DNA from: Burkholderiaceae bacterium
Lineage (GTDB): Bacteria; Pseudomonadota; Gammaproteobacteria; Burkholderiales; Burkholderiaceae_D
NCBI GenBank assembly: GCA_031291325.1
Contig: JARLJG010000016.1
Span: forward strand, 44,499 to 108,498
Direction of reading: 5' to 3'
Length of the DNA: 64,000 nucleotides
In this document: in pieces, positions 1,513 to 2,899 of the stretch
Layout: every line of letters begins with the position of its first letter
Numbering within the stretch: the first letter of the stretch is position 1
Position numbers and translations under genes: made by a program
Notes under the pieces: model-generated
The model's input: only the letters and a program-made list of their open reading frames with translations
Database searches by the model: none
What the model was told of the DNA's origin: nothing

Positions 1513-2760
1513 CTACGCCTGCAACGCCTGCCTGAAATCATCGAGCAAGTCAGCACTATCCTCGATCCCCACCGAAACCCGGATCAGCGATTCGGCGATG
1601 CCCATCGCGGCGCGGCGCTCTGGCCCGATCTCGTAAAAGATCGTGTGCGCGACCGGGATCACCAGCGTGCGGGTGTCGCCCAGGTTGCTCGATGCAATCG
1701 CCAGTTTCAGGCGGTTCAGGTAATCGAAGCAATCGATGCCGTCCTTCAGCTCGAAGCTGAACAGGCCGCCATAGGCGCGGAATAGTTCGCCGGCCAGCGC
1801 GTGCTGCGGATGCGAGGCCAGCCCCGGATAATGGACCGCCGCCACGCGCGGATCGGCTTCCAGCATCTGCGCTAACGCCAGCGCATTCGCGCACTCGCGC
1901 TCCATGCGCAAGGCGATGGTTTCGGCGCCGACCGCCAGCGCATGCGCGGCCTCGGGGGCCAGGGCCGCGCCGAAATCGCGCAAGGCTTTGGCGCGGATCT
2001 GCGCGATGCCCCATTGCGCAGTCGGGAAGCGTTTGTAGGATTCGTAGATATTCGGGAAGCGGCCCCAGTCATAGACGCCGGTATCGGTCAGGCTGCCACC
2101 GAGCGCGTTGCCGTGGCCGCCAACGTACTTGGTCAACGCATTGATCGAAATGCCGGCGCCGACCGCCTTCGGCTGGAACAGGTAGGGCGAAGTCATCGTA
2201 TTGTCGACCACGTACAGAATCCCGCGCGCCGCGCACAGCGCGCCGATGCGCTTCAAGTCGGCGATCTGGGTGCGCGGATTGGCGATGGTCTCGACGAACA
2301 CGATGCGCGTGGCCGGCGTAAGTGCCGCTTCGACCGCCGCCACATCTGTGGCATCGACGAACGACAGCGTGCAGCCCAACCCTGCCACGGTTTGCCACAA
2401 GCTGCTGGTATTGCCGAACAGGAAAGACGACGACACCACATGATCGCCCGTGCGCAACAGCGACTGCGCCAGCGCGCCGATAGCGCCCATGCCGGAAGCG
2501 AAACAGACCGATGCCGTCCCGCCCTCCATCTTGGTGACCTTGTCTTCCAGCGCCGACACCGTCGGATTACCCTGCCGCCCATAGCGGTAACCGGATTGCT
2601 TGCCCTGGAATACCGCCGCCAGCTCGCGCGCATCGGCATAAGCGAAAGCCACGCTGTTATGCACAGGCTTGTGCAAGGAGCCATGCTCGATCGGCTTTTG
2701 CCGGTCGCCGTGCAGGATGGTGGTGGTAAAGCCGTATTCTTTGTCGTTTTTGCTGGTCAT
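1513..2760 (-). CDS. Cys/Met metabolism PLP-dependent enzyme (cystathionine gamma-synthase / sulfhydrylase / methionine gamma-lyase-like)
   Basis: MTSKNDKEYGFTTTILHGDRQKPIEHGSLHKPVHNSVAFAYADARELAAVFQGKQSGYRYGRQGNPTVSALEDKVTKMEGGTASVCFASGMGAIGAL...ALTKYVGGHGNALGG. Start taken at ATG 2758-2760; the ORF-track extension to 2829 runs through the leader RNA. Confidence 0.88.
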   Translation of the reverse strand: MTSKNDKEYGFTTTILHGDRQKPIEHGSLHKPVHNSVAFAYADARELAAVFQGKQSGYRYGRQGNPTVSALEDKVTKMEGGTASVCFASGMGAIGALAQSLLRTGDHVVSSSFLFGNTSSLWQTVAGLGCTLSFVDATDVAAVEAALTPATRIVFVETIANPRTQIADLKRIGALCAARGILYVVDNTMTSPYLFQPKAVGAGISINALTKYVGGHGNALGGSLTDTGVYDWGRFPNIYESYKRFPTAQWGIAQIRAKALRDFGAALAPEAAHALAVGAETIALRMERECANALALAQMLEADPRVAAVHYPGLASHPQHALAGELFRAYGGLFSFELKDGIDCFDYLNRLKLAIASSNLGDTRTLVIPVAHTIFYEIGPERRAAMGIAESLIRVSVGIEDSADLLDDFRQALQA

Positions 2761-2762
2761 AA

Positions 2763-2797
2763 TAAAAAACCCGTCGTAGCGTGCGCTAAAACGGGTT
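2763..2797 (-). terminator. intrinsic terminator in leader of the PLP enzyme gene (riboswitch expression platform)
   Basis: Minus strand: AACCCGT-tt-TAGC-gcac-GCTA-cg-ACGGGTT-TTTTATT, ending immediately before ATG 2760. Confidence 0.85.
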
Positions 2798-2811
2798 GAT
2801 GAGCATTTCAT

Positions 2812-2899
2812 ATCCCTTTTTAGCGGCACTTGTTATGGGACTGCGTTCCGTACCTGTGTGGAACTACCCAGGCGCCCGCAAGCTGAAGCAAATCGGCGC
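2812..2899 (-). promoter_or_regulatory. SAM-II-type riboswitch aptamer candidate
   Basis: Minus strand: P1 GCGCC/GGCGC (2895-2899 / 2872-2876), loop GATTTGCTTCAGCTTGCG, pseudoknot ATTTG (2889-2893) with CAAGT (2828-2832), and conserved GCTAAAAAGGG (2814-2824), with an extra hairpin between P1 and the pseudoknot 3' strand. Upstream of a Met/Cys PLP enzyme. Confidence 0.85.

Follow-up and report, generated by a model that had tools for sequence, protein, structure and literature searches.

SAM-II riboswitches were described in 2005, with many members linked to terminators and a few found outside the alpha-proteobacteria, Bordetella being among those shown (PMC1273637), and terminator-linked SAM-II elements in the beta-Proteobacteria were reported in 2007 (PMC2258182). 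In S. meliloti, work has been done on a SAM-II leader for which control by a terminator is predicted (PMC9373788), and 44 cases of tandem SAM-II pairs are known (PMC9481103). Leyn and colleagues described in 2014 a beta-proteobacterial 'metXZ' element to which no ligand was assigned; it has six conserved regions, can adopt two folds and is followed by a terminator. They reported SAM_alpha in two alpha orders only (PMC4239095). Finally, the Rfam family RF02424 (Bp2_287) goes back to a screen for Burkholderia small RNAs, with RT-PCR support, whose authors already suspected that it might be a cis element of methionine genes (PMC3521395).

Here we examined a leader at 2899-2763 on the minus strand of a 64-kb window (the whole stretch of Burkholderiaceae DNA under analysis), for which the original prediction had proposed a SAM-II-type aptamer with a terminator platform. 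We consider it highly likely that this leader is a SAM-II-type riboswitch attenuating transcription of the gene behind it, PRK05939. By analogy with the SAM-II class, its ligand would be SAM and the direction of control would be OFF. The suggestion that such a terminator-linked betaproteobacterial case would be a first has to be withdrawn in view of the 2007 report and of the 'metXZ' element, published in 2014 with a terminator and an antiterminator (PMC4239095).

The regulated gene (1513-2760, minus strand) had been read as a PLP-dependent sulfhydrylase or gamma-synthase, and its product indeed matches NCBIfam NF004609 (PRK05939, cystathionine gamma-synthase family), a PLP-dependent enzyme of Cys/Met metabolism; among its relatives of solved structure, an O-acetylhomoserine sulfhydrylase (3ri6) and methionine gamma-lyases are the nearest. 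A met gene is thus found downstream, as expected of a SAM-II element. The strings quoted in the prediction for P1, loop, pseudoknot, core and terminator were all located by a sequence check at the minus-strand places given for them. Read 5' to 3' from 2937 to 2763 (minus strand), the leader comprises a promoter-like sequence, P1, its loop, a 35-nt insert hairpin, CAAGT, CGCTAAAAAGGG, a short linker and the terminator; the promoter-like sequence (2937-2908) and the hairpin (2870-2836) are additions to what had been predicted. The former consists of TTTTGC (2937-2932), an 18-nt spacer and TACGAT (2913-2908), and ends about 8 nt 5' of P1. Similar hexamers occur in most of the 19 orthologous PRK05939 leaders, and in a simple consensus promoter scan of the window this site fell under the cut-off.

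From sequence and folding, P1 is formed by GCGCC (2899-2895) and GGCGC (2876-2872); it is invariant within the PRK05939 leaders and covaries only among wider relatives (GCGTC/GACGC in L186, CCGCC/GGCGG in a metK variant). The loop opens with GATTTG (2894-2889), which supplies the third strand (TTT, 2892-2890) and the pseudoknot 5' strand, is invariant across 24 short relatives and recurs as an identical string in alphaproteobacterial SAM-II loci. It is followed by the variable CTTCA (2888-2884) and by GCTTGC (2883-2878), which is common to the alpha SAM-II elements and contains the UUGC of the SAM pocket. By eye, CTTC could pair with GGG as a distal P2 (P2a), weakly and mostly through wobbles. 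Folding showed an inserted two-part hairpin (TGGG/CCCA and GTTCC/GGAAC, 2870-2836) that separates P1 from the pseudoknot 3' strand and has no counterpart in the short SAM-II forms; the inserts of related leaders likewise fold as hairpins. The pseudoknot 3' strand, CAAGT (2832-2828), pairs with ATTTG (2893-2889) through one T.G wobble. This strand reads AAGT in 6 of 19 PRK05939 leaders and AAAT in the other 13 and in all others counted, so little variation that the complementarity seen in the window gives no covariation proof.

Downstream lies the SAM-pocket core GCTAAAAAGGG (2824-2814), within a segment, CGCTAAAAAGGG (2825-2814), that sequence, complementarity and folding identify both as the pocket core (GCTAAA) and as the putative antiterminator 5' strand. 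By the same means CCCGTTTTAGCG (2795-2784) was assigned as antiterminator 3' strand and terminator 5' arm. The intrinsic terminator (2797-2763) was obtained by folding, with a hairpin at 2797-2768 (about -15.9 kcal/mol) and a T run at 2769-2764, and its end at 2763 directly precedes the ATG at 2760. It is absent from the list of a simple terminator scan, probably owing to a mismatch in the stem, and the MFE z-score of the whole leader was not significant (-0.87). A further ATG at about 2811 stands right after the core AAGGG, and its frame (2811-2761) runs through the terminator into the PRK05939 gene, a layout reminiscent of the two-start S. meliloti metA that is not kept in orthologues.

A search with the Rfam SAM-II model, as the prediction had proposed, gave a divided answer. 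The window copy scored 11 bits against RF00521 (SAM_alpha), through P1 and loop only and against a gathering cut-off of 36, most likely because of its 35-nt insert, while several short relatives rose above that cut-off: L007 ahead of metZ (45.2 bits), L055 ahead of metK (41.7), L009 ahead of metX (40.6), L052 (38.8) and L053 (38.1). Across the order, the cut-off was passed in 16/100 genomes. We used two covariance models of our own. One (R1) was built from 15 leaders; a regular-expression search and this model turned up the core in relatives, in front of metX, metZ and PRK05939. The other (R2) was trained on 24 short metX/metZ/metK/metH elements, with no PRK05939 leader among them, and its best match in the 64-kb window was nonetheless the window site (33.0 bits, E 2.4e-9, covering the 5' half as far as the insert), which was also found in a whole-genome search (E 1.8e-7). 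R2 further recovered alphaproteobacterial SAM-II loci, four of them at 31-36 bits (maximum 35.9). With these R2 matches and the short relatives above the cut-off, the absent Rfam match can be dismissed as an argument against SAM-II.

The pocket itself is kept. GATTTG, GCTTGC and GCTAAA in the window are identical to those of alphaproteobacterial elements whose scores reach 88 bits, the pocket nucleotides UUU, UUGC and GCUAAA are all present, and so are the U and A residues described as contacts in the structure of SAM-V, which is closely superimposable on SAM-II (PMC6061858). The SAM-V model, RF01826, had no match in the window up to E 10. Through these homologies, and not as an RF00521 match, we assign the window element by sequence to SAM-II; the covariance-model matches, which connect this family and the SAM_alpha elements of Rfam in both directions, support the aptamer type originally predicted, as does the met-gene regulon described below.

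We collected 123 elements, whose identified targets are genes of the met cycle; they precede metX (56), metZ (27) and PRK05939 (23), the remainder standing mostly ahead of metH and metK. Matches to R1 were found in 206/300 genomes and 101/135 genera of the order and in 165/246 genomes of the family. The window's own genome, whose nearest relative is an Oxalobacteraceae MAG, contains four copies: those at PRK05939, metH (L047) and metX (L048), and a variant at metK (L222). When PRK05939 could be placed by a simple scan (16 relatives), it carried the element in 6, lay directly after purF without an element in 8 and showed neither arrangement in 2; Herminiimonas and Noviherbaspirillum are among the named carriers of the PRK05939-type element. 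Three further observations were made at these loci. Near metH in the window's genome are two copies of RF02278 (betaproteobacteria toxic small RNA; L047:1638-1702 and 1907-1971). In L055 the SAM-II element ahead of metK (1493-1565) is followed 1.4 kb downstream by an SAH riboswitch (RF01057, 2908-2986). A beta-type element also stands ahead of metX on a contig of a MAG labelled Chitinophaga pinensis (L093), a label that is probably a binning or labelling error.

In the mechanism we propose, transcription would start near 2902 and P1 would then form. With SAM bound, the 3' strand (CAAGT...GCTAAA) would form the SAM-II pseudoknot by folding back into the loop of P1, and the ligand-contacting strand CGCTAAAAAGGG would also be the rival partner of the terminator 5' arm. 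Without SAM, CGCTAAAAAGGG would pair with CCCGTTTTAGCG once the arm had been transcribed, blocking the terminator and allowing the gene to be read; with SAM, CGCTAAAAAGGG would be held in the pocket, leaving the arm free to form the terminator and to stop transcription ahead of the ATG. The step in which SAM holds the core strand is drawn from SAM-II and SAM-V structures (PMC6061858, PMC10907184).

Several results bear on this switch. The complementarity of CGCTAAAAAGGG (2825-2814) with CCCGTTTTAGCG (2795-2784) at 11 of 12 positions is as had been claimed, and this architecture recurs upstream of the orthologous gene in 18 other leaders, all distinct (19 with the window); they represent a small number of genera and are not independent of one another. 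The core/arm duplex was more stable than in dinucleotide shuffles in 15/18 PRK05939 leaders (mean -14.9 vs -8.6 kcal/mol) and in 14/23 metZ-class leaders. In the alignment of the 19 PRK05939 leaders, 91.4% of antiterminator cells were paired, against 23-58% in slid controls, as were 90.9% of terminator cells. Double changes in the antiterminator were limited to two pairs, barely above shuffles, and we therefore speak of conserved complementarity and not of strong covariation; variation among these leaders is too low for covariation to serve as proof. The comparison of orthologous leaders that the prediction had called for thus retained the architecture and the core/arm pairing, while P1 proved invariant and antiterminator covariation weak. 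One PRK05939 leader (L024:1357-1520) has lost its T run, and its core GCTAAGAGGG and arm CCTCTCTTGGC have changed jointly with complementarity kept.

We then folded growing transcripts of the window leader. Transcripts ending at 2784 to 2770 adopted the antiterminator, and at an end of 2768 the terminator was ahead by about 1 kcal/mol; for the leader to 2763 the two states were at -41.4 (antiterminator) and -42.4 kcal/mol (terminator), in a model that leaves the pseudoknot outside. Such a balance of about 1 kcal/mol between the two modelled states is what a ligand-tipped switch would require. Together with the conserved complementarity, this folding sustains the mutually exclusive antiterminator of the original prediction, with weak covariation at the pairs.

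A terminator follows 99/116 related elements across classes, in keeping with the predicted platform. Extension of the core/arm antiterminator to the metX class was rejected, since the duplex was better than shuffles in just 6/44 of its leaders; pairing in the region of GCTTG-CGGGC with GCCCG(A)CAAGC, significant in only 11/44, may be its alternative. Other metX leaders are built differently. In betaproteobacterial MAGs, L080, L081 and L102 have a core, GCTAAAGAGA, that abuts the start codon without a terminator, and translational control is likely there. In L149, L150 and L156-L158 there is no recognised terminator, and a downstream CATTCAGCC...TTTTAGCC is the complement of the tail of the aptamer, GGCTAAAG...TTGAATG, and may be another expression platform.

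Could the same aptamer act mainly on translation in the window as well? AAGGG would then be a Shine-Dalgarno sequence hidden by SAM, serving the in-frame ATG at about 2811 or, from a distance, the ATG at 2760, and the terminator would be ligand-independent, as has been reported for Sinorhizobium metA. The AAGGGATATG at the aptamer end does open a frame joined to the PRK05939 gene, the ATG at 2760 has no clear Shine-Dalgarno sequence, the S. meliloti SAM-II leader has a distant-SD, AUG1-terminator-AUG2 layout (PMC9373788), and in L080, L081 and L102 the core lies directly ahead of the start codon. However, the frame from the post-core ATG soon stops in L017, L018, L027 and L041, the ATG itself is missing in L024 and L035, and an arm tuned to the core in 15/18 leaders would be needless for a ligand-independent terminator; we regard translational control of PRK05939 as unlikely. 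Slightly less likely still is a SAM-II-shaped relative that senses another compound of the pathway (SAH, methionine, homocysteine or acyl-homoserine). Variants of other riboswitch classes do exist with altered ligands (PMC10853860), the window copy stays below the cut-off of the Rfam model, AAGT can replace AAAT in the pseudoknot and the loop is mostly shorter in the window class, yet the pocket nucleotides match those of alpha SAM-II, and AAGT and AAAT alternate among orthologous leaders of the same gene, so that the change looks neutral.

The remaining reading takes the plus strand as the conserved RNA, a small RNA as RF02424 would have it. This family matched the window's plus strand at E 0.00018, ahead of any minus-strand family match, and its origin includes RT-PCR evidence (PMC3521395); with 30 bits the match stayed short of the gathering score of 70, and the met gene is on the other strand. 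The strongest RF02424 matches (L186-L188, 108-204 bits) have an R1 SAM-II element antisense to them, ahead of metZ (L186:1501-1673, L187:1501-1677, L188:1501-1703), which rules out taking the plus-strand match at face value. Moreover, the T run would be a 5' poly-A on the plus strand, so the terminator cannot end such an RNA; promoter, terminator and downstream met gene make sense solely on the minus strand, and a cis element for methionine genes was proposed in the RF02424 source itself (PMC3521395). RF02424 thus models the antisense strand of a SAM-II-type leader, and a plus-strand small RNA is very improbable. SAM-II-type attenuation of PRK05939 is the reading that we retain.

The copy at metK in the window's genome (L222:951-1008; G000:C6:16650-16707) belongs to a variant, with P1 CCGCC/GGCGG, GAGTTAACAGACAACTTGCG and GCTAAAGCGTCGCAGG and without a SAM-type Rfam match; a possible pairing of its GCAGGCTC with GGAGCTTGC at the start codon suggests that control is translational. 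The variant motif reads GAGTTAA or GATTTAA...GACAACTTGC...GCTAAAGCGTCGC, a third-strand U being G in about half of the members. Its relatives precede metK in many Burkholderiales, with compensatory P1 changes and 15 double-change cells over the whole structure (0/500 shuffles), and a variant model matched 196/300 genomes, a count that includes cross-matches on normal elements. Among 30 loci examined, 12 were at metK and 17 at a small M(F/Y)DC reading frame, and 13 of these 17 stood in tandem behind a normal element. Normal elements followed by a variant within about 260 nt were seen in L232-L237, L248, L250, L252, L254, L255, L257, L258, L260, L262-L264, L266 and L267, mostly ahead of the M(F/Y)DC frame, which had no Pfam match in one case tested; a MATE-type-transporter-like frame follows in L232, L233, L236 and L238. 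A wider proposal, to which we give an even chance, is that SAM-II-type aptamers of the Burkholderiales form a genome-wide met regulon of at least two types: the window type, with a possible P3-like hairpin and one strand for ligand and antiterminator, and an undescribed, often tandem metK/exporter type. The latter could bind SAM at another affinity, or another ligand.

SAM-II of this kind being already known in betaproteobacteria, the novelty is modest. New are the PRK05939 target, the hairpin-bearing form missed by Rfam, a met regulon with four copies in a single genome, the correction of the strand of RF02424 and, in many Burkholderiales, the metK-type variant. The SAM-II class, whose curated model misses hairpin-bearing members, is linked to a leader element of beta-proteobacteria that had been an orphan and to an Rfam 'sRNA' family placed on the wrong strand; the regulon in the order is widened from metX/metZ to metH, metK and PRK05939; and the window offers a compact case in which a single RNA strand would be both ligand pocket and antiterminator.

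The window element shares with SAM-II (RF00521; Corbino 2005, PMC1273637) P1, the GATTTG/GCTTGC loop, the pseudoknot, the GCTAAA core, a promoter just 5' of P1 and a downstream met gene, and many SAM-II members also have a terminator between aptamer and gene. It differs in its extra hairpin, its P1 (GCGCC/GGCGC), its weak distal P2, its PRK05939 target and its sub-cut-off score. With SAM-V (RF01826) it has in common a pocket nearly identical by published structure (PMC6061858), and SAM-V has a P3 helix much as the window copy has its insert hairpin, whereas SAM-V is translational and was described from marine bacteria. RF02424 (Bp2_287) describes DNA elements of this kind too, with its model on the other strand. 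The metXZ element (PMC4239095) is alike in bacterial group, metX/metZ targets, a choice of pseudoknot or alternative fold, terminator and proposed antiterminator. That element was given as a single copy in each genome, at metX or metZ only, with its antiterminator strand placed in other regions (3 and 4) and with no link to SAM-II, in contrast to the up to four copies per genome found here, including PRK05939, metH and metK. By genes, taxa and layout, the metXZ element is very probably the SAM-II-type element that we describe.
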